From positions 1 to 64,000 of the forward strand of contig CAIYYI010000684.1 of assembly GCA_903930345.1 (NCBI GenBank): a DNA stretch of 64,000 nucleotides, given 5' to 3'. Origin of the DNA: an uncultured Verrucomicrobiota bacterium. GTDB lineage: Bacteria; Verrucomicrobiota; Verrucomicrobiia; Limisphaerales; CAIYYI01. The position numbers and the translations under genes were made by a program. Shown here in pieces: positions 13,958-37,011 of the stretch (the stretch's first letter is position 1; each line of letters begins with the position of its first letter). Below the pieces are notes generated by a model that was not told the origin of the DNA, did not search any database, and saw nothing but the letters and a program-made list of their open reading frames with translations.

Positions 13958-15088
13958 ATGAAACTCAAAATCCTCTCCGCCCTTTTCCTGGTGGCGCTGA
14001 TCCTCGGCACCCTGGGCGGGGTGAAATACCTCCAAATCCAAAAGATGATCGCCGGGGCCAAAACCATGCTGCCACCGCCAGAGACGGTCTCCAGCGTGGA
14101 GGTCCGCGCGGACACCTGGAAGGAATCCCTCACCGCCATCGGCACCATCAATGCCGTGCAGGGGGTCACCATGACGCCCGATGTGCCCGGCACCGTGAGG
14201 GAGATCGCCTTTGAATCCGGCGCGGTCGTGGCCAAAGATGCCCTGCTGGTGCGCCTGGACACCTCCTCGGAGGACGCCCAACTGCGCGCCGTGGAGGCGC
14301 AGGCCGAATTGGCCCGCCTGAACCTGGCCCGCATGCGCACCCTGAAAAATGACAACACCGTGTCGCAATCCGACCTCGACACGGCCGAGGCCACCCTAAA
14401 GCAGGCCCAGGCCAACGGGGACAACATCCGCGCGACCATTGCCAAGAAAACCATCCGGGCCCCGTTTGCGGGTCAATTGGGCATCCGGCTGATCAACCTG
14501 GGGCAGTACCTGGAAACCGGCAAACCGATCGTCTCGCTCCAGGCACTCTCGCCGGTGTATGCGGATTTCTCCCTGCCGCAGCAGGAACTGGCGAAGCTGA
14601 AGACCGGGATGCGCGTGGAATTGGTCACGGATGCCTACCCGGAAAAGCGTTTTGTGGGGGCACTGACCGCGATCAATCCCGACCTGGACCAGGCGACCCG
14701 CAGCGTGGGCCTGCAGGCCACGCTGGAAAATCCGGGGCATCTGCTGCGCCCCGGAATGTTTGCCCGGGTGGAGGTGCTTCTCCCCGGCGAGCACCAGGTC
14801 CTGGTCATTCCGGCCACCTCGGTGCTGAGCGCGCCGTATGGGGATTCCGTGTACGTCATCGAACCCCACGCGGCCACCACCAATCAACCGGCGGGCTTGG
14901 CGGTGCGGCAGCAGTTCGTCCGCACCGGCCGCACACGGGGGGATTACATCAGCGTCCAATCCGGGCTCAAGGCCGGGGAGAGGATTGTGGGGGCGGGATT
15001 GTTCAAGCTGCGCAACGGGATGCCGGTGGTGGAGAACAACACGCTGGCCCCGAAATCCGCCACCGAACCCCGTCCGTCGGACAGCTAA
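13958..15088 (+). CDS. RND efflux periplasmic adaptor subunit
   Basis: Lipoyl/barrel-sandwich region GTINAVQGVTMTPDVPGTVREIAFESGAVVAKDALLVRLD; KKTIRAPFAGQLGIR. Confidence 0.93.
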   Translation: MKLKILSALFLVALILGTLGGVKYLQIQKMIAGAKTMLPPPETVSSVEVRADTWKESLTAIGTINAVQGVTMTPDVPGTVREIAFESGAVVAKDALLVRLDTSSEDAQLRAVEAQAELARLNLARMRTLKNDNTVSQSDLDTAEATLKQAQANGDNIRATIAKKTIRAPFAGQLGIRLINLGQYLETGKPIVSLQALSPVYADFSLPQQELAKLKTGMRVELVTDAYPEKRFVGALTAINPDLDQATRSVGLQATLENPGHLLRPGMFARVEVLLPGEHQVLVIPATSVLSAPYGDSVYVIEPHAATTNQPAGLAVRQQFVRTGRTRGDYISVQSGLKAGERIVGAGLFKLRNGMPVVENNTLAPKSATEPRPSDS

Positions 15089-15103
15089 CCAGCGCGCCTC
15101 GTC

Positions 15104-18100
15104 ATGAAGTCATTTACCGACATCTTCATCCGCCGACCGGTGCTGGCGCTGGTGGTCAACCTGGTGATCCTCATCGCCGGGTTTCAGGCGATCCGTTCGC
15201 TGAACGTGCGGCAGTATCCGCGCAGCGACAACGCGATGGTGACCCTCACCACGGTGTATGTGGGGGCCAGCCCGGAGCTGGTGCGCGGGTTCATCACCAC
15301 CCCGCTGGAGCGGGCGGTCGCGGCGGCGGACGGCATCGAATACATTGAGTCCAACAGCCGGCTGGGGCTCTCCACCATCAAGATCCGGCTCAAGCTCAAC
15401 TACGATCCCACCAAGGCGCTGGCCGAGATCAGCTCGAAGGTGGATCAGGTGCGCAACAACCTTCCGCCCGAGGCGGAGGTGCCCACCCTGAACATTGAGA
15501 CCGCCGACTCCCAGATTGCCTCGGCCTACCTGAGCTTCACCTCGGACATCCTGGAGGCCAACCAGGTCACCGATTATCTGGTGCGCGTGGTGCAACCCCG
15601 CCTCTCGGCGCTGGAGGGGGTGCAGCGGGCGGACATTCTGGGCGGGCGCAGCTTTGCCATGCGCATCTGGTTGAAGGCGGACCGCCTGGCGGCGCTGAAC
15701 ATGAACCCCGCCCAGGTGCGGGAGGCGCTGGCGGCCAACAACTTTCTTTCCGCCGTGGGCCGCACCAAGGGGGCCCTGGTGCAGGTGAACCTCACCGCCA
15801 ACACCGACCTGCGCAGCGTGGAGGAGTTCCGCAACCTGGTCGTCAAGCGCACCGGCGACAACCTGGTGCGGCTGAGCGATGTGGCGGACGTGGCGCTGGG
15901 GGCGGAGGATTACGACACCGAGGTGCGGTTCACCGGCGAGCGGGCCGTGTTCATGGGCGTCTGGGTGCTCCCCAACGCCAACTCCCTCGATGTCATCAAG
16001 CGCGTGCGCAAGGAGATGGCCTCAATCCAAAAGGAGCTGCCCTCCGGCATGGGCGGCCGCATCGCGTACGATGCCACCAAGTACATTGATGACGCCATCA
16101 ATGAGGTCATCAAAACCCTCACCGAGACGCTCTTCATTGTGGCCGTGGTGATTTTCCTGTTCCTGGGCTCGCTGCGCTCCGTGCTGGTGCCGCTGGTCGC
16201 CATTCCCATCTCGCTCATCGGGGCGGTTTTCCTGATGCAGGTGTTCGGATTCACCCTGAACCTGCTGACCCTGCTGGCCGTGGTGCTCTCCGTCGGACTG
16301 GTGGTGGATGATGCCATCGTCATCGTCGAGAATGTGGAGCGCCACATCCGGGAGGGGCAGACTCCGCTGAATGCGGCCCTGCTGGGCGCGCGCGAGCTGG
16401 TGAGCCCGGTCATCGCCATGACCATCACCCTGGCGGCGGTGTATGCGCCCATCGGCTTCCAGGGCGGCCTCACCGGCTCGCTGTTCCGGGAGTTTGCTTT
16501 CACCCTGGCGGGCGCCGTGTTCATCTCCGGCGTGGTCGCCTTGACGCTCTCTCCCGTGATGTCCGCCAAGCTGCTGAGCGCCGACCGGGAAGAACACGGG
16601 CTGACCGGCCGCATCAACCACGGCTTTGACTGGCTGCGCCGGGTGTATGACCGGGTGCTGGCGGCCACCCTCTCGGCGCGGCCGGCCGTCTATATCGTCT
16701 GGATCAGCCTGAGCCTTCTTTCCATTCCGCTCTTCATGATGTCCAGCGTGGAGCTGGCCCCCATGGAGGATCAAAGCATCATCTTCGGTGTCGTGGAGGC
16801 GGCGGCGGATGCCACCATTGATCAGACGGCGCATTACACGGACGCCATGGGCCGCGCCCTGCTGAGCACACCCGAGGCCAGCCGGACCTTCCAGCTCACC
16901 TTTCCGGACAACGGCATTGGCGGCCTGGTGCTCAAGCCGTGGGGCGAGCGCAAACGCACCGTCTTTGCCATCATCCCCGAGGTGCAGAAGAAGGTCAGTG
17001 CCATTCCCGGCATCCGCAGCTTTGTGGTCACGCCCCCCGCGCTGCCCGGCGGCGGCCAGTTCCCGGTGGAGTTTGTCATCGGCGCCACCGCCGAACCGGA
17101 ACTCATCCTGAAGTTTGCCGAGCAGCTCCAGCAGAAGGCGACCGCCAGCGGCATGTTCGCCTTTCCCCCGCTCATTGACACCAAGCTGGATCAGCCGGAG
17201 GTGGAGCTGGTGATGGACCGCGACAAGGTCGCATCCCTTGGGCTGAACATGGCCACGGTCGGGAGCGACCTGGCGGCTCTGGTGGGTGGCAATTTTGTCA
17301 ACCGCTTCAACCTGGATGGGCGCAGCTACAAGGTCATCCCCCAGATCAAACGCATCGACCGGCTGAATCCGCAGCAGTTGGAATCCACCTACGTCAAAGG
17401 CCCCAACGGCCACCTGGTGCCGCTGAGCACATTTGCCACCCTGAAGAAGAAAACCGGCCCCCGCACGCTCAACCGTTTCCAGCAATTCAACGCGGTGAAG
17501 ATCAGCGGCGTCACCATCCGCCCGCTGGATGAGGCCCTGCGGTTCCTGGAAACCGAGGCGCAGCAGATCCTCCCCGAGGGCTACAAGCTGGACTACACCG
17601 GCGAATCCCGCCAACTGCGGGTGGAGGGGAGCAAGTTTCTGCCCGCCTTCCTGCTGGCCCTCACCCTGATTTTCCTGGTGCTGGCCGCGCAGTTCAACAG
17701 CTTCCGCGACCCGTTGATCATTCTGCTGGGCTCGGTGCCGCTGGCGATGTTTGGCGCGCTGCTGTTCTGCTTCCTGAAAATGCCCAATCCCAACACCCCG
17801 TTTTGGACGGACGGCTGGACCACCACCCTGAACATCTATTCCCAGGTCGGCCTGGTCACCCTGGTGGGCCTGGTCTCCAAAAACGGCATCCTGATCGTGG
17901 AATTCGCCAACGCCCTCCAACGGCGGGGCCGCACCAAGGTGCAGGCCGCCCGCGAGGCCGCCGCCGTGCGCCTGCGCCCGGTGCTGATGACCAGCGCCGC
18001 CACCATCTGCGGCCACTTCCCGTTGACCCTCGTCTCCGGGGCCGGAGCGGCCGCGCGCAATTCCATCGGCATTGTGATCGTCGCCGGCATGGCCCTGGGC

Positions 18101-18214
18101 ACGATCTTCACCCTGCTGGTGATCCCCTCCATTTACGTGCTGCTGGCCAAGGACCACAAAGGCGAAGGGGCAACCGCGGAGGAAACCCCCGCCGCGCCCG
18201 TGGTCAAGGGGTGA
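15104..18214 (+). CDS. RND multidrug efflux permease (AcrB/MexB-like)
   Basis: 1036 aa; FIRRPVLALVVNLVILIAG, GLVVDDAIVIVENVERH, LVGLVSKNGILIVEFAN. Confidence 0.96.
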   Translation: MKSFTDIFIRRPVLALVVNLVILIAGFQAIRSLNVRQYPRSDNAMVTLTTVYVGASPELVRGFITTPLERAVAAADGIEYIESNSRLGLSTIKIRLKLNYDPTKALAEISSKVDQVRNNLPPEAEVPTLNIETADSQIASAYLSFTSDILEANQVTDYLVRVVQPRLSALEGVQRADILGGRSFAMRIWLKADRLAALNMNPAQVREALAANNFLSAVGRTKGALVQVNLTANTDLRSVEEFRNLVVKRTGDNLVRLSDVADVALGAEDYDTEVRFTGERAVFMGVWVLPNANSLDVIKRVRKEMASIQKELPSGMGGRIAYDATKYIDDAINEVIKTLTETLFIVAVVIFLFLGSLRSVLVPLVAIPISLIGAVFLMQVFGFTLNLLTLLAVVLSVGLVVDDAIVIVENVERHIREGQTPLNAALLGARELVSPVIAMTITLAAVYAPIGFQGGLTGSLFREFAFTLAGAVFISGVVALTLSPVMSAKLLSADREEHGLTGRINHGFDWLRRVYDRVLAATLSARPAVYIVWISLSLLSIPLFMMSSVELAPMEDQSIIFGVVEAAADATIDQTAHYTDAMGRALLSTPEASRTFQLTFPDNGIGGLVLKPWGERKRTVFAIIPEVQKKVSAIPGIRSFVVTPPALPGGGQFPVEFVIGATAEPELILKFAEQLQQKATASGMFAFPPLIDTKLDQPEVELVMDRDKVASLGLNMATVGSDLAALVGGNFVNRFNLDGRSYKVIPQIKRIDRLNPQQLESTYVKGPNGHLVPLSTFATLKKKTGPRTLNRFQQFNAVKISGVTIRPLDEALRFLETEAQQILPEGYKLDYTGESRQLRVEGSKFLPAFLLALTLIFLVLAAQFNSFRDPLIILLGSVPLAMFGALLFCFLKMPNPNTPFWTDGWTTTLNIYSQVGLVTLVGLVSKNGILIVEFANALQRRGRTKVQAAREAAAVRLRPVLMTSAATICGHFPLTLVSGAGAAARNSIGIVIVAGMALGTIFTLLVIPSIYVLLAKDHKGEGATAEETPAAPVVKG

Positions 18215-25003: not shown

Positions 25004-26434
25004 TCAATTGTCGCCAGCCAGACGCGGCTCCCCCAGTGAGCGCAATTCCTCCGCAAGCACCGCACACTGCTGTGCGAAAGCTTTTGCGCCCATACTTTCC
25101 ATGGGGACGCTGGCGATCACATGCACGCCGGCGGACGACCATGGCCAGAGGGTGCGACGCAAGTAGGTGGGATAGTCGTTGAGGAGTTCTCCGCGGTGGA
25201 TAAAAAACTCGCGCATCCAAACAAGCCCATCGGTCATCGTGGAAGGATCCAATCCAGAGGGCTTCAATTCGATGCCGCGATAGCGCAAGCAAACGGGGAG
25301 CGTGTGATGGCGACCATCCCCGGACGGGCCATACCAAATCAATTGGATGTCGTACGGTTGGCCGACAAGCCTGATTTCAAAAGTATTTGCGGCCACCTCC
25401 CTGGACATGGCGCCTGACGGGGGACGCAGACTGGGCCGAAACACGCCGGTTAAAGAGGACGCCATGAAGGGGAGCAGGAGGAGGAAGACCAACGCGGAGC
25501 GAGTTAACAGCCTCACCCAAAAGGAAGAGGCAGCAACAGCTCCAAAGGGGGCACCGTCCCCAAGGCCGGTTTTCAACAACCTCCAAAGCTCAAAAATGGC
25601 CGCGATCGCCAGGACCCAGCGGCCAAGCGGGTGCATTGCCACAAGGGGAATGGTCCCGATGGCGAGCATCAACCCTGAAGGGCAACGGTACAAAGCCAGC
25701 CCGGCGAACCATGGGCAAAGCAGAAGCCAGGGAAGCCACAGCGATTCCATGCTGGAAAGCGCGATAAAGCCGGCGGCGATGATCCAAAGCGTGGCAGCCC
25801 ATCTTCGTTCAGCCCCCACGGGCGAGTAATGGCTCTGAGCCACGAGCAGCAAGGTGGCGAGGGTGACGAGATTGCCCCCCGGAGCGGGCACAAAAGGTGA
25901 AACGAGGGAGAGCGCGACGACAAGAAAAAGGGTTTCCATGAGGTAGCGTCCTGGTGCCCTTCCGGAGCGCGGCACAAACAAGGGAAGCAGAGGCATGATC
26001 CAGAGAAAGCCAATGAAATAATGCAACTGGGGACTCTCCACCGATGGGAAAAACAGATGGCGGAAGGCAAGGAGGGTGAAGATCCGGGCGATGTTTGCGA
26101 GGAGGGCGGCCGGAACAGCCAGCGCCAGTCGCAGCCAGTAACGGAAGGAGAATGGTTCGGCGCGGTTGGCCCAGAGAGTTACCGCCCAGAGCATGGTCAG
26201 GATATTGACACCGGCGCAATCGCGGGTCCAAGGCACGCGCATTTGTCCGAGGATCAGTTCTCCGGCGGTGTGTTGGGCCGCCACGCCAAGGAGCTTGAGC
26301 AGGGCAACGACAAATGGCCGCGTGAAGTTGGATAGGAGATCGTTGGTGGCGGCCAGGTGCAACAACCCGAAAACAGCGACCAAGGCGACGACAGTGCGCG
26401 TCACTTGGCTGATCTGCGGATTTGGTTGAGCCAT
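25004..26434 (-). CDS. Exosortase/archaeosortase family transpeptidase with fused C-terminal extension
   Basis: Polytopic; Cys motif RDCAGVNILTMLWAV, Arg motif ANIARIFTLLAFRHLFFP, His motif HYFIGFLWIMPLLPLF; C-terminal soluble region compatible with EpsI-like domain. Confidence 0.87.
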   Translation of the reverse strand: MAQPNPQISQVTRTVVALVAVFGLLHLAATNDLLSNFTRPFVVALLKLLGVAAQHTAGELILGQMRVPWTRDCAGVNILTMLWAVTLWANRAEPFSFRYWLRLALAVPAALLANIARIFTLLAFRHLFFPSVESPQLHYFIGFLWIMPLLPLFVPRSGRAPGRYLMETLFLVVALSLVSPFVPAPGGNLVTLATLLLVAQSHYSPVGAERRWAATLWIIAAGFIALSSMESLWLPWLLLCPWFAGLALYRCPSGLMLAIGTIPLVAMHPLGRWVLAIAAIFELWRLLKTGLGDGAPFGAVAASSFWVRLLTRSALVFLLLLPFMASSLTGVFRPSLRPPSGAMSREVAANTFEIRLVGQPYDIQLIWYGPSGDGRHHTLPVCLRYRGIELKPSGLDPSTMTDGLVWMREFFIHRGELLNDYPTYLRRTLWPWSSAGVHVIASVPMESMGAKAFAQQCAVLAEELRSLGEPRLAGDN

Positions 26435-27462
26435 GTGACGGTCTCTGGGGTTGGGTTGCGGCGCTTGAGTTCCTGCGACCATAGATCCAACGATGAAACA
26501 TCCCGCACCTGGGCGGAAGAAAGCACGAGCATCAAAACGGTTTCTTCCGGCAACAGCACCGGGTTTGCGGAGGCATGCGGGTCCAACACCTCACGGTATT
26601 TCCTGCTCACAAACTTCTGCCGCAAGTCGAGCTGGTGGCCAGCGCCACTGATTGCAGCCTCGCGAACGCCAGGGTTGGTTTTGATTTGCCGGAGTAATTG
26701 GGTCCTCAGATCCTCCCCCGCCATCTGATCCTGCGGGGCCTTGAGAATCCCGACCACCTCGGCGCGCAATGGGGTTGGAACCCGTCCCGCTTTTAACGCC
26801 GCCATGAGCATTGCCGAGGTGTGGCCACCCAACCCGGCATGCATCCTCAATGTCCGTAGCGCACGCATGTCCAAGTCCAACCACCCCGCCGGATCAGTCG
26901 CCAAGTAGGCCTTGATGGCCTCCTCAAACCGGCCTTCGGAGGCAAGCACCCGACCCTGGATCAAGGGCGGCACCCGGTTTTCAGAGATGGCCCGGTTCAT
27001 GGCGGCGAGGAAGGGATTTGGCTGGGCTGGGCGCAAGGCATTCTGAAGCCGATAAGGCGCATATACGTGAGTGAGGGGAAGCTCCGCCGCCGGGATCAGC
27101 AGAAAGGAGGCGAGTGCTGCGGGCAGATCATCCGTGGCCATGAGGAGCAAACCACGGAGATAGAGCGCCGGTGGATGCCGGGTCTTGCCAGCCAGGGCAG
27201 CCACTTCTTTACGCAGCTCTTTGTTTGCCCACACACCCTCGGCGGTTGCGATGACGTCCTCCCACAAAAGAGTCTTCAGCAACAGCTCATCCACTTTCCT
27301 GTCGGCGACCCCACTGAGGATAATGTTTCGCCCGGTGGGCAGTCCGATCACAGACTTTTGAGTGCGAGCGGGTGTAAGAAACCAGAAAACGATAATAGGG
27401 ATAAAAAGGACCGCCAACAGGATTGCCCAGGCGACCTTCCAAGCCGGTTCAGTTTTGCGCAT
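26401..27462 (-). CDS. Membrane-anchored TPR-like protein of the exosortase cassette
   Basis: Start trimmed to MRKTEPAWKVAWAILLAVLFIPIIVFWFL; helical-repeat-like body (GRVLASEGRFEEAIKAYLATDP); overlaps both neighbours. Confidence 0.7.
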   Translation of the reverse strand: MRKTEPAWKVAWAILLAVLFIPIIVFWFLTPARTQKSVIGLPTGRNIILSGVADRKVDELLLKTLLWEDVIATAEGVWANKELRKEVAALAGKTRHPPALYLRGLLLMATDDLPAALASFLLIPAAELPLTHVYAPYRLQNALRPAQPNPFLAAMNRAISENRVPPLIQGRVLASEGRFEEAIKAYLATDPAGWLDLDMRALRTLRMHAGLGGHTSAMLMAALKAGRVPTPLRAEVVGILKAPQDQMAGEDLRTQLLRQIKTNPGVREAAISGAGHQLDLRQKFVSRKYREVLDPHASANPVLLPEETVLMLVLSSAQVRDVSSLDLWSQELKRRNPTPETVTWLNQIRRSAK

Positions 27463-28285
27463 GTTTTTTGAATTTCCAAGACACAACGGCTCCCATTGCC
27501 AACAGGAGAACCAGCGGAGGAACCGGTGCTCCCGGAGCAGCGGGCGCAGTAGGTGTAGTTGTCGTGGCTGCCACGGTCGTGGTTGGCACGGTTGTGGCGG
27601 CCAAGGTGACGGTTGGAGCCGCCGCTGCGTAAGTGACTCCAGAGGGTGCTGCAGCAACCCCCAGGTTTGCCGCCTCCAGCAAAGCCGCATCCCGTTGCGA
27701 CAGCAGGGCGAAGTCCTCAAAACCGCCTGAAAAGTCAAAGAATGTTTCGTTTCCTTGGGTCTTTGCGTCTGCTGTCGTCACGAATGTGACATTGAGGCTT
27801 GCGCTCAGCAGTGTTCCCTGGAAGGCAACATTGCGGAGCCTTATCACATCGTCGAATTGTCCGAGGTTAAAACCATCCGTACCTCCCGTGATCTGGCTGC
27901 TGCCAGATCTGCCAAAGGCCGTGTAAAACTCCGTTGGACCGGCCGCGCCCGCCTCCCGTATCATGGCGGTGGTGCTGGTGAAAAAATCGTTGAAGCTGAA
28001 GGTTCCGGCGGTCGTGCGGATGACCAGTTCGAGTTGTTTGATCGCGAGGCCAAGCGAATCGCGGGTTTCGTTTCCAGCCTCATTCTCGTTGACATCAATA
28101 CCCAGCAAGAGCCCGCCACTGCTCGTCAAATATTGCTGAAGACTGGCTGCGTTCACATCAGTCAATAGGTTGATCGAACCGTTGCCCTTGTATATTTTGT
28201 CTGTCAGGGTGGTCGGTATCTGGGCTTTCAGTGAGGGGGCCGCCAGCAGTCCCACCAACAGCACTCCAGCCGATATAACGCGCAT
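27449..28285 (-). CDS. Exosortase-target surface protein with C-terminal sorting tail
   Basis: Signal peptide MRVISAGVLLVGLLAAPSLKAQ; Thr/Ala/Pro-rich linker; tail GAPVPPLVLLLAMGAVVSWKFKKHAQN (motif, short TM, basic end). Confidence 0.75.
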   Translation of the reverse strand: MRVISAGVLLVGLLAAPSLKAQIPTTLTDKIYKGNGSINLLTDVNAASLQQYLTSSGGLLLGIDVNENEAGNETRDSLGLAIKQLELVIRTTAGTFSFNDFFTSTTAMIREAGAAGPTEFYTAFGRSGSSQITGGTDGFNLGQFDDVIRLRNVAFQGTLLSASLNVTFVTTADAKTQGNETFFDFSGGFEDFALLSQRDAALLEAANLGVAAAPSGVTYAAAAPTVTLAATTVPTTTVAATTTTPTAPAAPGAPVPPLVLLLAMGAVVSWKFKKHAQN

Positions 28286-28420
28286 CGCGATCCCGCACAT
28301 AACGTGACTGTGTTTGCTAATAGGGAGAGAGTCAAGGACTGACAATGAATCCCAGGAAGAGCGCAGCTCACTAAACCTCGGGGTGAAACGTTTTGCAGTT
28401 AATATCATGTCACCCTCTAA

Positions 28421-28436
28421 GCTCGAGGCGTGCCAA
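28421..28436 (-). promoter_or_regulatory. Sigma-54 type -24/-12 promoter of the exosortase cassette
   Basis: Minus strand TTGGCACG-CCTC-GAGC; invariant GG and GC separated by exactly 10 nt; lies upstream of the 28285 start. Confidence 0.7.
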
Positions 28437-28515
28437 CCTGCTGGAACCATTACTTCATGCTGATGCTAAACAAGTTGCAGTTATTACGAAATAGAGGGAA
28501 TGGAATGCAAATCTG

Positions 28516-28530
28516 AAATGCATTGCATTT
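28516..28530. promoter_or_regulatory. Candidate activator binding site
   Basis: Perfect palindrome AAATGCA-T-TGCATTT in the divergent intergenic region, about 80 bp upstream of the -24 element. Confidence 0.5.
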
Positions 28531-28557
28531 GCGATGCATATACACGATTGTTGGCCT

Positions 28558-29883
28558 ATGCGGATCGGTTTTCTTGAAAGTCCAGGTGCTCATGATCTTC
28601 GGGCACGCACCGAATCTTTGGGCGTGCCGGTTTTTGCGTTGAACCCGCAACAGGTGCAGGAACTGACGAGCGATTCGGTTGATCTGGTCTATTTGATTCC
28701 ATTTGAAGAGCTATCCCGGCGGGATTGGTTATTGCTCAGGGTCAAACTTGCCCAAGCCAATCGTCAGTTTATCGTCGCCGGTGTGGCACTTGCCTCCGCC
28801 CAGCTCATGGAGGCTGTGCGGGATGGGGCGGCGGATGTGCTTGATGAGCGGGATGACGACGAACGCTGGAGGAAGGCGCTCAACCGAGCGGCGGAGTCGC
28901 AAAAGGTCTGGCTCCAACTCTACGGCGGCGCCACGGCGTCTGCCGGTGAGGTGCTGAGTGGACAATCGGCCGCCATGCGTGCGCTGCGGCAGGCTGTGGA
29001 AAAGCTTGGAGCGACGGATGTCAATGTGTTGATTCTGGGCGAATCAGGCTCCGGGAAGGAGCGGGTCGCCCAGGCTCTGCATGAAGCGAGCCACCGCAAA
29101 AACTTTGTGGCATTGAACTGTGCAGCGATCCCGAAGGACCTGCTCGAAGCCGAACTGTTTGGCGTGGAGAAGGGCGCCTTCACCGGAGCGCTCAAGTCAC
29201 GCTCGGGATTGGTCGAGCAGGCAGCGGATGGGACGCTGTTTCTGGACGAAATTGGAGAAATGGACATCGCCCTGCAACCGAAGCTACTACGCTTTCTGGA
29301 AACACGGACCGCCCGGCGTGTCGGCAATGAACGAGAATACCGGTCAAGGGCGCGCATCATCGCGGCGACCAACCGCAACCTGCGAGAGGAGGCAAATGAC
29401 AAGCGGTTCCGCGCCGATCTGTATTTCCGCCTCGCGGAAATAGTGCTCAACACGCCTTCTTTGAGGGAGCGTCCCGAGGATATTCCCGGACTCGTCCAAA
29501 TCTTCCTGCGGTTGGCGAATGAACGATTTGGTAAGAATGTGGAGTTTGTTGAACCCCCATTACTGCAGCGCATGCAGGCCTATCGCTGGCCCGGAAACGC
29601 GCGGGAACTAAAGTCCGTGATTGACCGGCTGGTCTTGCTTTTTGATGGACCGGTACTGCGCGAGGGCTGTTGGGAGGCTCCCGGCCAGATGCCGGTGGTG
29701 CCGGAAGCGACCATACCAGCGGTAGCCGGGGGAAGGGGGACCCCGGTCCCCAATCGCAGGCAAAAGCAGGAACTGGCGAACGGCTTGCTGGCCGATAGTA
29801 ACAACAACTACACTTGGGTGGCCAGCCAGCTTGGTATCACTCCCTCCACACTCTGGCGCTGGCGCAAGGCGGGGAAACTCTGA
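28558..29883 (+). CDS. Sigma-54 dependent transcriptional activator (enhancer-binding protein) with receiver-like N-domain
   Basis: Walker [15 protein letters not shown] loop ([10 protein letters not shown]), [28 protein letters not shown]-terminal [24 protein letters not shown]; start placed at MRIGFLE. Confidence 0.93.
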
Positions 29884-30293: not shown

Positions 30294-31784
30294 ATGCCTG
30301 ATCCGGGACAGCATGCCGCCACGAGCACGGGGCCACGGCCCCGGGCCTCGTTGTCGGCGGAACTGTTCCGGGAGGTCCGGCCGGACTTCTTCCGCGTGCT
30401 CAGCGGCCCCAACGCCCCGGTCTATGTGGATGTGCTGGACATCCTGGAGGCCGAGGCCTCCCAGCGCAACGAGGGGATGGCCCGCCAGGAGGCGCTGAAC
30501 ATCATCGCCGACACCCTCGCCCGCCACCCGGAGTTCCAGCTTGAGCCCGACATCGCCCCCGGCGAAAGCCTGCCCGAATCGCTCACCGTCCGCGACAAGG
30601 CGCGGGCGGTGCTGGAGTATTTTGTCCGCACCGGCTGGATCGAGGCGGAGACCGGCTCCGACTGGCGGCGCGTGGTCTTCTTTGATGCGCACGGGGCCAC
30701 ACTGTTGTCCGGCCTGCGCAAGATGGCCTACCCGGACGCGGCGGTGTTCACCGACAAGCTGCTCGGGGTCTGCGCCGCCCTGGCCAACCACGCGGAGCTG
30801 GCCCGCCAGCCGTATGAGCATTTGCAGTACTGCCGCGACAACACCCAGCAGGGCATCGTGGAGCTGCGCGCCATGCAGAAAAGCGTGGAGCGGCTCATCC
30901 GCCGCCAGGTGGAGGCGCAGACGCTGGGGGACAACCTGAGCGTCGTGTTTGATCAGTACGCCGAGCAGGTGGGGCACACCTGCTACTCCGAGCTGGTGCG
31001 CTCGCACCTGGCCTCCCGGCTGGGCGAGGCGCGCGAGCGGCTTTACGCCCTCCTGACCGATGCCGACCTGCTCCAGAAAATGCAGCGCGAGGTGATGAAC
31101 CGCCACCCGGGCCTCGACCACTCCATCGCCATGGCCCGCGTGCGCCTGCAGATTGATGACCTGATCGCCGCCCTGGAAAGGGTGCTGCCTTTGGCGGATG
31201 TGATTGACGCCCGCACGGCCGAGTTCACCCGCCGTTCGCTGGCCCGGTTCCGGTATCTTCAGGAGGTGGTGGGCGAGCGGCGCAACCAGGTGCGGGCTTT
31301 GTTCGAAACGTTGAATCGCCAGTTCACCGGCCGGCGCTTTGGCGATCTGGAGGAGGCCCGCGAATTGCCCTCGCCGCTGCTGCCGGACGCGCGCCTGCTG
31401 GCCGGCCGCGATTCCCTCTACGAACCGGCCCGCCGCCGCACCCTGGAGGAAAACTCGCCGCTGGAGGAGGAGGTCACCGAGGAGCAGCGCAGCCGCACGC
31501 GGCGGCAGATGGAGAACGCGCTGCGGGAATCGCTCTCGGTGGCGCGGGCCAACCTGTATGTGCAGCATCTGCCGGGCGGCAAGGGCCAGCGCCTGGCCAG
31601 CGTGGAGCTGCCCCTGCACAACCCGCAGGACCTGGGCGATTTGGTGGCCGTGCTGCTGCACGCGGAGTCCTCCGAGGCCCGCTACCTCATCGAGGTGCCG
31701 GGCGCCCGGGAGGAGGCCGGTCCGGTGGGGTTTGACGCCCAGCCCGGCTGCCGCGTGGAACGTTTTTACCTGGTGAAGAAATAG
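30294..31784 (+). CDS. jetA: Wadjet anti-plasmid system protein JetA (DUF3375-like)
   Basis: First gene of a four-gene A-B-C-D cluster; size and helical content as for JetA; FREVRPDFFRVLSGPNAPVYVDVLDILEAEA. Confidence 0.85.
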   Translation: MPDPGQHAATSTGPRPRASLSAELFREVRPDFFRVLSGPNAPVYVDVLDILEAEASQRNEGMARQEALNIIADTLARHPEFQLEPDIAPGESLPESLTVRDKARAVLEYFVRTGWIEAETGSDWRRVVFFDAHGATLLSGLRKMAYPDAAVFTDKLLGVCAALANHAELARQPYEHLQYCRDNTQQGIVELRAMQKSVERLIRRQVEAQTLGDNLSVVFDQYAEQVGHTCYSELVRSHLASRLGEARERLYALLTDADLLQKMQREVMNRHPGLDHSIAMARVRLQIDDLIAALERVLPLADVIDARTAEFTRRSLARFRYLQEVVGERRNQVRALFETLNRQFTGRRFGDLEEARELPSPLLPDARLLAGRDSLYEPARRRTLEENSPLEEEVTEEQRSRTRRQMENALRESLSVARANLYVQHLPGGKGQRLASVELPLHNPQDLGDLVAVLLHAESSEARYLIEVPGAREEAGPVGFDAQPGCRVERFYLVKK

Positions 31785-31785
31785 C

Positions 31786-32436
31786 ATGAGCACCGTCCTG
31801 AACCAACCGCCGCCCGCCCCGCTGCTGGGGCGCCTGACCGAAGTGGACCGCCTCCGCCTGGGGGAGGCGCTGCAACTGCTGCTGGCGCACGGCTCGCTCT
31901 CCGGCCTGGAGCCCGCGCGTGCCGAGCTTTACACCTGGTGCCGCCAGAACCTCGACTGGCTGCGGGAGGTCGCGGCACTCTCCGGCCTGCAGGTGATCAA
32001 CGAGCACGAGAGCCGTCTCGTCCAGGCGCTGCCCACCCGGCCAGCCCTCACCCTGCGCCTGCGCCAGGATGCCACCATCGTGCTGCTGGCGCTCTGGTAT
32101 GAGTACGACACGCAGATCCGCGAACAGGGGGCCACCGAGGTGATCGTCACCGTCGAGCAGCTCAACCGCCTGCTGCAGGAGAAACTGCTGCCGGACCTCA
32201 AGGAGCCGCCCAGCCGGGGCCGGCTGCTGGAGATCCTCCGCCAGGCGCAGCGCTTCAACCTGGTGCGCCTGGAGGTGGCCGACGAGGTGGAGGCCTCCCA
32301 GGTGGAGATTCTGCCCACCCTCAAACGGGTCATCCCGTTCCAGGACCTGGCGGATTGGACGCGCACCGCCGCCCTGCACCACCACCCGGGGGCGGTGGAG
32401 GAAACCGCTGCCGCCGAAGCGGGAGGTGAGGCATGA
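31786..32436 (+). CDS. jetB: Wadjet protein JetB (DUF4194-like)
   Basis: LRLRQDATIVLLALWYEYDTQIREQG; follows jetA by 1 bp and overlaps jetC by 4 bp. Confidence 0.88.
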   Translation: MSTVLNQPPPAPLLGRLTEVDRLRLGEALQLLLAHGSLSGLEPARAELYTWCRQNLDWLREVAALSGLQVINEHESRLVQALPTRPALTLRLRQDATIVLLALWYEYDTQIREQGATEVIVTVEQLNRLLQEKLLPDLKEPPSRGRLLEILRQAQRFNLVRLEVADEVEASQVEILPTLKRVIPFQDLADWTRTAALHHHPGAVEETAAAEAGGEA

Positions 32437-35400
32437 GCCGCGCCATCCGCCTCTCCCGCCTGCATGCCATCAACTGGTATGGGTACAACGACACCCTGCC
32501 CGTGGCGGGCCACCTGCTGCTGGCCGGATTGACCGGCTCCGGCAAGAGCGTCCTCATGGATCTGGTGCAACTGGTCCTGGTGGGGAGCGACCGCGCCCTC
32601 TTCAACCGGTCCGCGACCGGCACCACCAGCGACCGCAGCCTCAAGAGCTACGTGTTGTGCGACACCAAGCGCGAGGAGAACGGGCAGGCCCAGTACGTCC
32701 GGGACAAGGGGGCCATCACCTATGTGGCCATGGAGTTCACCTGGCCCAAGGACGGCCGCAGCGAGACCTGGGGCCTGCGCATCGAGTTCCGCAACGCCGC
32801 CGAGCAGCAGGGGCGCGTGACCCCCTTCTTCTGCCCCGGCAGCCTGGAGAAGCATCATTTCCTCGACGCGCAGCGCCGTCCACTGGAGCAGGCGGATTTC
32901 CGCCGCCTGGTGGAGAAGGAGCGCGGCGGACGCCTCTTTGAGACGCAGGAGCAGTACCTGCGGGACATGGCCAATGAGCAGCACCTCAACTTCAACCGCT
33001 CGGTGCTGGCCAGCCTGCTGCCCACCGCCATGTCCTTCACCAACCTGAAGAGCTTTGATGAGTTCTGCCGCCGCTTCATCCTGCCCGGCGACCGCCTGCA
33101 GGTGGCGGATGTGGTCTCCAGCTACAAAAACTTCCAGGCGTACGAGCGGGACCTGCGCGAGCTGCACGACCAACTGCGGCGGCTGGAGGAGATCCACCAG
33201 CATCACACCGCCCAGCAGCAGGCCTCGCGCGACCGCGTGGTGGCCCGCTGGCTCGCGGCCGAGCTTTCCCGCGACCTGGCCCGGACGCTGCTCCAGGAGC
33301 TGGAGGGCCGGCTCGCCGGGCTGCGCCAGACCCATGCCCGCGAGGCGGCCCGCATCGCCGAGTTGGATGAGCTGTTGCAGCGCGGGCGCGAGGAGCTGGC
33401 CCGGCTGCGCGCCCTGATCGGCGAATCGCGCGACGGCCAGTTGTATCTGTTCCTCAAATCGCGCAATGCCGAGCTGGTCCGCGACATTGAGAAGTTCAAA
33501 CAGGTGGGGCAGCGGCTCGATGGCGCGCTGCGCCTGCGGGTGAGGAACGCGCGCGCCTGGCTGGCCGAGGTGAAAACCGCGCCGGCGGCGGAGACGGTGA
33601 ACTTCACCGGCCTGGAGGCCGCGGTCAAAGCGCTGGAAGGTTGCGCCGCGGACCGCAGCGAGAGCTGCCTGGTGGCCCTGGCCGCCGAGGCGGAGCTGGT
33701 CAAGGCCGCGCTCAGCCGGGCCATCCGGCCCGCCCGCGAGGAGCTGGACATCGCCCGCCAGAACCTGGGCCGCCTGCGCGAGGAGATCGGCGCGCTGCAG
33801 CTCGGCCACCTGCCCATGCCCACGCGCCTGCTGAACGCGTTGAATGACGCGCTGCCCTTCGTGAACCGGGAGCCCGCCGCCCAGACCCTGTGCCAGCTTT
33901 GCGAGGTGACGGATGAGAAGTGGCGTCCGGCCATCGAGGTGGTGTTCACGCGCAAGTTCGCTGTGGTGGTGGGTGAGCCGCACTATGCCCGCGCCGTGCA
34001 GCTCTACCATGAGCTGCGCGAGGATTCGCCCCAGGAATCCCTCATCAACCCGCACAAGGCCCGGCCCCGGCCGGTCCTGCCCGGCTCGCTCGCGGAAAAG
34101 ATCGCCACCACCCATCCGGTGGCCCAGGCCGTGGTCAGCCAGTTGTTCGGGGATCTGATCTGCGTGGAGAAACGTGAGGACCTGGCCCGCCACGAGAAGG
34201 CCATCATGCCGGACGGCTTCATGTCGGCGGGGGCCTTTGTCCAGCGGCGGCGGCACTATGACAACCTGCCGTTCGTGGGCGAGAGCGGCCTGCGCAAGCA
34301 GCTTGAGGTGAAACGCGGCCAGCTCCGCCAGTGGGAAACCATGGAGCGCCAGTTGCGCCCGAAGCTGGAGGAGGTGGACCGCGTCAACCGGCGCGGCAGC
34401 GAGCTGATTCCCGAGCACGCCACCCTGGCGGATGACCTGCGCGAGGCGCACGCCCTGCCGCGCCTGGAGGCGGAGCTGGCGCGCAATATCACCCAGCTCA
34501 ACTCCATCGACCGCGCCAGCTTTGAGGAGCGCGAGCGCGATCTGGTCCGGCGCGAGCAGGAGATTGGCCGGCATGAGGCGGAGCAGCGCCCGCTGCTGAC
34601 CAGCCAGCTCAGGGGTGAGATCACGCACCTGGAAAACCAGAGCGCCAGCCTCTCCGACCAGTTGGCCGGGGCCGCGCGTCAGTTTGAGCGCGTGCAAACC
34701 GAGGCGGGCGATCTGTCCATCCACGCCGCCCGCCTGAACCAGTGGCGGCGCGAGGTGCTCACCGAGTATCCCGCCCTGGATGCCGCCGCGCGACGGTTTG
34801 AGAAACACGAGTCCGACGCCCGCGAGCAGGCGGCCGTGCGGCGCGAGAAGTTGGTCGCCGCCCGCCGGGAGCTGGCCCTGGCCTACCGCAAGTTTGAGGA
34901 TCTGCCGCCGGAGAGCGAGGACAACGCCCCCTGGGAAAAACTGCGGCTCCAGATCAACGAGGCCAACATTCCCGATTACCAGACCAAGTCCGCCTCCGCC
35001 CGGAAGCACTGGGAGGGGTTGTTCCGCACCCAGGTGCTCGCCAAGCTGGACCGCGCCCTGCGCGAGGTGCGCGATCTGGTGGTGCTGCTCAACACCCACC
35101 TGCGCGCCCCCATCGGCAATGACCGCTACCAGATCGAGGCCCGGCCCAGCCCGGACTTCAAGGTCTATCGCGACCTGGTCTCCCTCAACGCCCAGCACGT
35201 CCAGGATGAACTCTTTTTTGCCTCCGTCAGCGGCGAGCTGCGTGACGCCCTGGAGTATTTCCTCAAAACGCTGGTTGATCAGCCGGACAGCGCGGAGGCC
35301 GTCCGGCTGCTGGATTACCGCCATTACTTTGACTACGATCTCTTGGTCGGGGACGCCCGCGACGCCCAGGCCCGGCCGGTCAGCGTGGACCGCCAGAGCG

Positions 35401-35774
35401 GCAAGTTCAGCGGCGGCGAAAACCAGGCCCCGTATTTCGTCGCCATCCTGGCCAGCTACCTGCGCGCCTATAACCGCCATGAAACCCGCTGGCAGGAGCC
35501 CGCCCTGGCGCTGGTCCCCATTGACGAGGCCTTCTCCAAGCTCTCCCCTGAGCGCATTGAGGACTGCGTGCGCGCCCTGAAGCAACTCAATTTGCAGGGC
35601 GTGCTCTCCATGAGCGCGGGCAACATTCCCTTCGCCTTCAGCCAGTGCGACCAGCTCATCATCGTCTCCAAGCACGAGGAGCGGCGGGGCACGCGCACCC
35701 TGATCCGCAATGTGCCGGTGAGCATCGTGCGGGAATCGGCCGAGGGCCAGACCTGGATGAAAGATCATGCCTGA
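32433..35774 (+). CDS. jetC: Wadjet SMC/MukB-like ATPase JetC
   Basis: Walker A GLTGSGKSVLMDLVQL; ABC signature FSGGENQAPYFVAILASYLRAY; Walker B LALVPIDEAFSKLS; long coiled-coil. Confidence 0.95.
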   Translation: MSRAIRLSRLHAINWYGYNDTLPVAGHLLLAGLTGSGKSVLMDLVQLVLVGSDRALFNRSATGTTSDRSLKSYVLCDTKREENGQAQYVRDKGAITYVAMEFTWPKDGRSETWGLRIEFRNAAEQQGRVTPFFCPGSLEKHHFLDAQRRPLEQADFRRLVEKERGGRLFETQEQYLRDMANEQHLNFNRSVLASLLPTAMSFTNLKSFDEFCRRFILPGDRLQVADVVSSYKNFQAYERDLRELHDQLRRLEEIHQHHTAQQQASRDRVVARWLAAELSRDLARTLLQELEGRLAGLRQTHAREAARIAELDELLQRGREELARLRALIGESRDGQLYLFLKSRNAELVRDIEKFKQVGQRLDGALRLRVRNARAWLAEVKTAPAAETVNFTGLEAAVKALEGCAADRSESCLVALAAEAELVKAALSRAIRPAREELDIARQNLGRLREEIGALQLGHLPMPTRLLNALNDALPFVNREPAAQTLCQLCEVTDEKWRPAIEVVFTRKFAVVVGEPHYARAVQLYHELREDSPQESLINPHKARPRPVLPGSLAEKIATTHPVAQAVVSQLFGDLICVEKREDLARHEKAIMPDGFMSAGAFVQRRRHYDNLPFVGESGLRKQLEVKRGQLRQWETMERQLRPKLEEVDRVNRRGSELIPEHATLADDLREAHALPRLEAELARNITQLNSIDRASFEERERDLVRREQEIGRHEAEQRPLLTSQLRGEITHLENQSASLSDQLAGAARQFERVQTEAGDLSIHAARLNQWRREVLTEYPALDAAARRFEKHESDAREQAAVRREKLVAARRELALAYRKFEDLPPESEDNAPWEKLRLQINEANIPDYQTKSASARKHWEGLFRTQVLAKLDRALREVRDLVVLLNTHLRAPIGNDRYQIEARPSPDFKVYRDLVSLNAQHVQDELFFASVSGELRDALEYFLKTLVDQPDSAEAVRLLDYRHYFDYDLLVGDARDAQARPVSVDRQSGKFSGGENQAPYFVAILASYLRAYNRHETRWQEPALALVPIDEAFSKLSPERIEDCVRALKQLNLQGVLSMSAGNIPFAFSQCDQLIIVSKHEERRGTRTLIRNVPVSIVRESAEGQTWMKDHA

Positions 35775-37011
35775 CACCCCACATGCCACACCCCCCGGCA
35801 ACCGCTGGTCGGCCGTGCTCCTGACCTTCGCGGCGCTGTACGAACGCTCCCAGGCCGGTCGTACCGGCCAGGGCGAACGCGATTTCACCGCCGACTTCCG
35901 CGACCTGCTCCGCCAATCCGGCTGCGCCGATGGCGAGCCCCGCGCCCAGGCCTTGCGGGACTTGGAGTCCGCCGCCCAGACCGGGCTTCTCCGCCTGGAG
36001 CATCACCGGCATGACCGCCACCTGATTGAGAAGGTCCGGCTCTCCCTGGCGGGCGAAGAGACCTTTTTTCAACACCTCGGGGTGCCGTCCCCGGCGGCCC
36101 GCCGCACCTCCTTGGCGGCCCAATTTGCGGCGGCGGCGGACCTGCCTGTGCCAGCCGAGTGGGCGCAAGCCTGGCGCCTGGGGTGTGAACTTCTCGCGCA
36201 GGCGGCCCGCGAGGGCGGCTCCGTGGCCCCCTTTTCCCGCGAGCACCCGGAGGAGAACCAGGAGCTGCTGGAATTGCTGCCGCGCCTGCTGGCCTGGCGG
36301 GGGGAGTCCTTGCGGCGCTTTGCCAGTTGCGTCCTGTGCGGGCAATCCAAACGCCTGGATGAATTGGCCGGGCGGCTTGGCCAGGCCTTGCGCCTCCTCT
36401 CCGGCGACCGGGTGACGTCACTGGACGACCTGGGCATTCTCGACAAACCCCGCTCCGTGCTCGTCTCCGGCCCGCTGGTCTTGGAACTGCCTGCGGGCGC
36501 CATCAATTTGGGTCTGTTGACCGGCCCTTACCGTGTTTCGGAGTTGGACCTCGCTGCGGCGCTGCGCATCAACACCACGGCCACCCGCGTTCTCACGGTG
36601 GAGAACGAGACCACTTTCCTGGAACTGTCGCGCCTCGCGGCCGGGGATCTGCTGGTGCAGACCAGTTATCCCGGATCAGCGACCCGGCGGCTGCTCTCCC
36701 GCTTGCCGACCGGGTTGGAGTTCTGGCACTTCGGGGACAGTGATCCGGAGGGGTTTGACATCCTGCGTGATTTGCGGGAGCGCACCGGGCTACCCTTTCG
36801 CAGCCTGCACATGACCTGGCGCGGGCAGGTTGCCGGACCATCCCTCACCGCCGAAAGCCGCCGCCTGCTGGACCGTCTGCTGGCGGACCCTCCCCTGGCC
36901 GCCGAGCATGAAGTTCTGCGGCAGCTCCAGGCTTCGCCGCATCTGGGGGCCTATGAGCAGGAGAGCCTGGGTCGGCCGACCCTGGGGCAATGGCCTTATT
37001 ACCCCCGGTGA
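35767..37011 (+). CDS. jetD: Wadjet Toprim-type nuclease JetD (DUF3322/DUF2220-like)
   Basis: Toprim-like VENETTFLEL and WHFGDSDPEGFDILRDL; overlaps jetC by 8 bp. Confidence 0.92.
   Translation: MPDTPHATPPGNRWSAVLLTFAALYERSQAGRTGQGERDFTADFRDLLRQSGCADGEPRAQALRDLESAAQTGLLRLEHHRHDRHLIEKVRLSLAGEETFFQHLGVPSPAARRTSLAAQFAAAADLPVPAEWAQAWRLGCELLAQAAREGGSVAPFSREHPEENQELLELLPRLLAWRGESLRRFASCVLCGQSKRLDELAGRLGQALRLLSGDRVTSLDDLGILDKPRSVLVSGPLVLELPAGAINLGLLTGPYRVSELDLAAALRINTTATRVLTVENETTFLELSRLAAGDLLVQTSYPGSATRRLLSRLPTGLEFWHFGDSDPEGFDILRDLRERTGLPFRSLHMTWRGQVAGPSLTAESRRLLDRLLADPPLAAEHEVLRQLQASPHLGAYEQESLGRPTLGQWPYYPR

Follow-up and report, generated by a model that had tools for sequence, protein, structure and literature searches.

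In previous descriptions, control of exosortase substrates by sigma-54 is a trait of Proteobacteria that is linked to PrsK/PrsR. In Proteobacteria, a cis-regulatory box of PEP-CTERM genes occurs together with PrsK, PrsR and RpoN, and the motif has been reported only there (Haft et al. 2006, PMC1569441); dependence on RpoN has been demonstrated at one gene of this system, pepA of Aquincola (PMC9850573). The main text of a broad survey of sigma-54 regulons is silent on exosortases and PEP-CTERM (PMC12316311), and we found no paper on XrtZ or PGAP-CTERM in a literature search. The locus analyzed here, from an uncultured member of the Verrucomicrobiota, has in common with the proteobacterial system a candidate -24/-12 promoter upstream of the gene for an exosortase substrate, a putative upstream activator site, an NtrC-type activator and a TPR partner protein. 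It differs from that system in the activator, which belongs to another family (it fails the PrsR model TIGR02915) and whose receiver-like domain shows no obvious Asp, as well as in the operator, the lack of a PrsK above the family cut-off, the placement of the activator gene divergent from the cassette, the phylum, and the exosortase, which is either XrtZ or an enzyme without a letter designation ("unlettered" below).

The window, that is, the whole stretch of 64,000 nucleotides that was analyzed, carries an exosortase cassette on the minus strand and, facing away from it, the gene for the sigma-54 activator (EBP). The first cassette gene (27449-28285, minus strand) encodes a PGAP-CTERM sorting target (NF050189, 33.4 bits, cut-off 25), and the other two encode a TPR-like protein (26401-27471, minus strand, start approximate), assigned from weak TPR matches and a homolog in the related locus L206, and exosortase Z (XrtZ; 25004-26482, minus strand; NF050190, 512.4 bits, cut-off 475), so that exosortase and target each exceed the NCBIfam cut-offs for the XrtZ/PGAP-CTERM system. 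The EBP gene (28558-29883, plus strand) encodes a receiver-like N-terminal domain, an AAA+ domain with the GAFTGA loop (PF00158, 211.6 bits), which identifies the product as an NtrC-type bacterial enhancer-binding protein, and a C-terminal HTH that is apparent from the sequence and the structural model, with PF02954 under its cut-off. The genome also encodes sigma-54 (the RpoN gene). Directly downstream of the EBP gene lies a Wadjet-like jetABCD operon (30294-37011, plus strand; JetA, DUF4194, an SbcC-like ATPase and JetD_C), and genes for an RND efflux adaptor and permease are located at 13958-18214 (plus strand).

The first 120 residues of EBP match no Pfam family, receiver families included, and are predicted to adopt a five-strand receiver-like fold, in a model of moderate overall confidence (pTM 0.52). 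The best matches among solved structures are NtrC1, NtrX, LuxO, FleQ and VpsR; EBP shares the receiver-AAA+ architecture with these proteins and with NtrC4, about 25-46% of residues being identical in the aligned parts, but the phospho-acceptor Asp that marks the response-regulator subset is not evident in it. Strand 3 of the predicted fold ends in DLVYLIP (consensus VYLxP) with no Asp after it, which, as far as the model goes, makes phosphorylation control of EBP unlikely. The signal of FleQ and VpsR is c-di-GMP.

The sequence-only reading had proposed that the divergent activator binds a perfect palindrome, AAATGCATTGCATTT, at 28516-28530 and switches the cassette on. An inverted repeat does occupy this place (0.07 such sites expected per window when up to 2 mismatches are allowed), and its 7-bp arms are perfect, but the central T is unpaired (AAATGCA-T-TGCATTT), so that it is no strict palindrome. 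The stretch that is conserved among relatives is, rather than the symmetric part, ATGCATTGCATTTGC at 28518-28532 (plus strand; 20.9 bits; family consensus TYGCATTGCAWTYGC), which overlaps the repeat with an offset of 2 bp and which we regard as an operator (UAS) and putative site of EBP binding. The stretch 28525-28543 holds two weaker operator-like copies of about 12 bits each that overlap one another (28525-28539 on the minus strand, 28529-28543 on the plus strand), and a half-site-like copy, AATGCAAAT, lies upstream of the operator at 28504-28512; several orthologs likewise have a copy of the ATTGCAA type upstream of their main operator. The window further contains exactly two copies of the direct repeat TTGCAGTTA (28393-28401 and 28475-28483, both on the plus strand) against 0.12 expected, in agreement with what had been read from the sequence. 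A start of EBP at 28534 was considered, given that many orthologs have the operator directly before the ATG, and 28558 is preferred because in the close relatives L201, L203, L204 and L206, which have an MRIG-like N-terminus, operator copies are located at about -34 to -41 of the ATG that matches 28558. The window operator lies 26-40 bp before this preferred start.

Profile search detected EBP orthologs in 54 of the 320 genomes of the order, widely separated in score from other activators (orthologs at 1e-135 or better, the next matches at 1e-71); the named records of the family are from Verrucomicrobiota, several of them in subdivision 3. The octamer GCATTGCA is present in 24 of 44 upstream regions of non-redundant EBP orthologs compared with 0 of 39 control regions, and the commonest 8-mer over 50 shuffled leader sets reached at most 9. 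Expectation maximization on the EBP leaders converged on the 15-bp motif TYGCATTGCAWTYGC (17 bits; log-likelihood 245 vs 64-78 for shuffled sets), which was identified in 34 of 40 non-redundant EBP loci against 0.004 expected per locus, with a matrix trained on the same loci. In 20 loci, the operator occupies precisely the 15 positions before the EBP start codon (-15 to -1), right after a TAnnnT box, a placement that suggests autorepression; the EBP gene is probably autoregulated, more specifically autorepressed, through the operator. The distance from the operator center to the GG of the -24 element is mostly 70-136 bp across EBP loci and 91 bp in the window.

On the other side of the intergenic region, the minus strand reads TTGGCACG-CCTC-GAGC at 28436-28421 with the GG-N10-GC spacing, just as the sequence-only reading had it. 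We annotate TTGGCACG-CCTC-GAGC-T (28420-28436, minus strand) as a candidate sigma-54 (-24/-12) promoter directed at the exosortase cassette, with a predicted start near 28409-28410, from its sequence and from a motif that de novo search places at the corresponding position of orthologous loci. Compared with TGGCAYG-N4-YTGC, which the family consensus matches in full, the window promoter has the spacing and the -24 half, and the -12 half agrees in part (GAGC, with GA in place of the consensus TT). Judged from the window alone, the statistics are weak and fall short of significance: 23 matches to TGGCACG-N4-TTGC with up to 2 mismatches were found against 36.8 expected in the 64-kb window, 6 sites per 64 kb score at least as high as the promoter (its own site counted) with an approximate sigma-54 PWM, and when the intergenic region was shuffled 2000 times, 25 of the shuffles (~1%) contained an equal or better site. 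A -24/-12 match scoring slightly above the window promoter, TTGGCACGGTTGTGGCG (27583-27599, plus strand), is located inside the PGAP-CTERM coding region and is probably a chance occurrence. A search of Rfam produced no match. Because the window statistics are unconvincing, judgment on the promoter depends on the comparison with orthologous loci.

In 40 EBP loci, 14 sites of at least 12.5 bits directed outward from the EBP gene lie 150-50 bp upstream of it, clustered at about 100-150 bp, against 0.10 expected and with no such site on the opposite strand of the same interval, as counted with an approximate matrix. Independently of this matrix, a de novo search of fixed segments from the 13 EBP loci that face an exosortase cassette yielded tTGGCAcG-N4-ccTGCt (log-likelihood 99 vs 43-53 for shuffles), with the window promoter among the members of the motif. 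A GG-N10-GC element that is not conserved between orthologous intergenic regions had been named as the finding that would speak against the promoter, and both the clustering of sites and the de novo motif reveal the element as conserved. Scored with the approximate matrix, the promoter is present in 12 of the 13 cassette-facing loci vs 4 of the 27 that face other genes (p = 4e-6), the latter being loci with no recognized cassette, some of them on short contigs. Four EBP orthologs without a recognized cassette (L174, L175, L063 and L209) have a divergent sigma-54-like site and possibly other targets; the site in L174 is directed at a long ORF with a C-terminus that appears fibronectin-like by eye.

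Against this background, there is a small chance, although not a negligible one, that the GG-N10-GC element of the window is an accidental or decayed match, non-functional in this genome within a family architecture that is real. Its chance-level frequency across the window and its poor -12 half fit such a reading, as does the fact that this genome is the only one of its family in the searched set, which leaves no closer comparison, but strand and distance are conserved in L203, L204 and L206, the adjoining operator is strong, and in L206, which has the same XrtZ cassette, the site is a good one. We retain the element as a candidate promoter of the cassette, with the proviso that this copy may be weak or decaying, given the poor fit of its -12 half to the family consensus.

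The 13 cassette-facing loci, in which the divergent gene is a member of an exosortase cassette, encompass two cassette types. The window and L206 have the XrtZ/PGAP-CTERM type, and the remaining loci have an unlettered exosortase that exceeds the general signature TIGR04178 where scanned and belongs to no lettered subtype; these cassettes usually include a TPR protein and a DUF4114-containing target that ends in a PEP-CTERM-like tail, and in L061 and L218 only the target is visible. EBP was detected in 26 of 33 genomes with the unlettered exosortase vs 28 of 287 without it (odds ratio 34). Among XrtZ cassettes of EBP-less genomes, the operator was found in 0 of 8 and the promoter in 0 of 8; where the target gene was not recognized, the scan covered the region upstream of the first cassette gene. 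Truncation of some unlinked cassettes in EBP-less genomes makes that control a weak one. The other XrtZ cassettes examined, L206 aside, are without EBP, operator and promoter, whereas the window has all three.

The same elements also accompany cassettes located far from the EBP gene. In L256, an operator and a promoter precede the target gene, and in three more unlinked cassettes, a single operator lies between two divergent promoters that point toward the TPR gene and the exosortase (L260, 6742-7086; L266, 3441-3754; L271, 772-1077). This arrangement is not universal, given that many other unlinked cassettes have one element or neither above threshold. A genome-wide operator search in the genome of the window (G000) revealed, apart from the window site, no exact match with a promoter-like site in adjacent non-coding DNA. 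Another cassette of this genome, with an unlettered exosortase and a DUF4114 target (L255, G000:C549), is cut by the contig start, so that its promoter is unreadable.

These unlinked cassettes bear on another explanation, namely, that the operator serves purely for autoregulation of the EBP gene, or is the site at which another regulator acts on that gene, with the divergent promoter driven otherwise or unused. This possibility arose when no cassette had been recognized beside the first orthologs, and it would account for the operator directly before the EBP start codon, after the TAnnnT box, in the 20 loci mentioned above and for the operator in 22 of the 27 EBP loci that face no recognized cassette. 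It was dropped once cassettes were recognized by sequence and operator-promoter pairs were found far from the EBP gene, three of them with one operator for two promoters; moreover, the divergent promoter is found at much the same position with respect to the operator from locus to locus, and we now consider autoregulation as the sole role of the operator quite unlikely. Membership of the system in the proteobacterial PrsK/PrsR control can be dismissed as highly improbable because, despite the same logic of a sigma-54 promoter, an upstream activator site and an exosortase substrate gene (PMC1569441; PMC9850573), EBP scores 263.9 bits against a cut-off of 502.6 for TIGR02915, for which it was rejected as a PrsR, none of the 80 kinase-domain matches in the genome, which is 90% complete, exceeds the PrsK cut-off, the receiver-like domain of EBP has no obvious phospho-acceptor, and the DNA motif of Haft et al. 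has been found only in Proteobacteria (PMC1569441).

The operator accompanies the EBP family and is also present upstream of the sigma-54 promoters of unlinked cassettes, as would be expected if EBP binds it. From the conservation, position, strand and co-occurrence of the elements, and their absence from XrtZ cassettes of EBP-less genomes, we infer that EBP is the binding protein and that the promoter depends on sigma-54. EBP would bind the operator at 28518-28532, beside its own start, and, from a position some 90 bp upstream of the -24 element, would remodel the RNA polymerase-sigma54 complex at 28420-28436, leading to transcription of the genes for the PGAP-CTERM target, the TPR protein and exosortase Z; at the same operator, EBP probably limits expression of its own gene. 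The proposal that the divergent activator switches the cassette on is thus supported at the sequence level, with the conserved operator as the likely binding element, and is extended by the operator itself, the EBP family, the second cassette type and the probable autoregulation. We are fairly confident in this reading of the region as a compact divergent control unit, in which the EBP-bound operator activates the cassette's sigma-54 promoter and probably holds back expression of the EBP gene.

In relatives, the unit of regulator, operator and promoter would serve the second type of dedicated exosortase cassette, also in trans, so that an uncharacterized activator family of Verrucomicrobiota probably switches on several kinds of exosortase cassette. 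Somewhat more tentatively, although on balance we favor it, this undescribed and probably phosphorylation-independent family runs a dedicated-exosortase regulon in which the activator-operator-promoter unit is conserved while exosortase and target are exchanged (XrtZ with PGAP-CTERM, or the unlettered enzyme with DUF4114 and a PEP-CTERM-like tail), and which includes single operators firing two divergent sigma-54 promoters. An activator and an operator different from those of PrsK/PrsR appear to play the same role in another phylum, and the regulator stays constant while the sorting enzyme changes. The analysis yields a concrete operator, a regulon definition and candidate promoters for dedicated exosortase systems, and the signal to which EBP responds could indicate when surface remodeling takes place in such cells.
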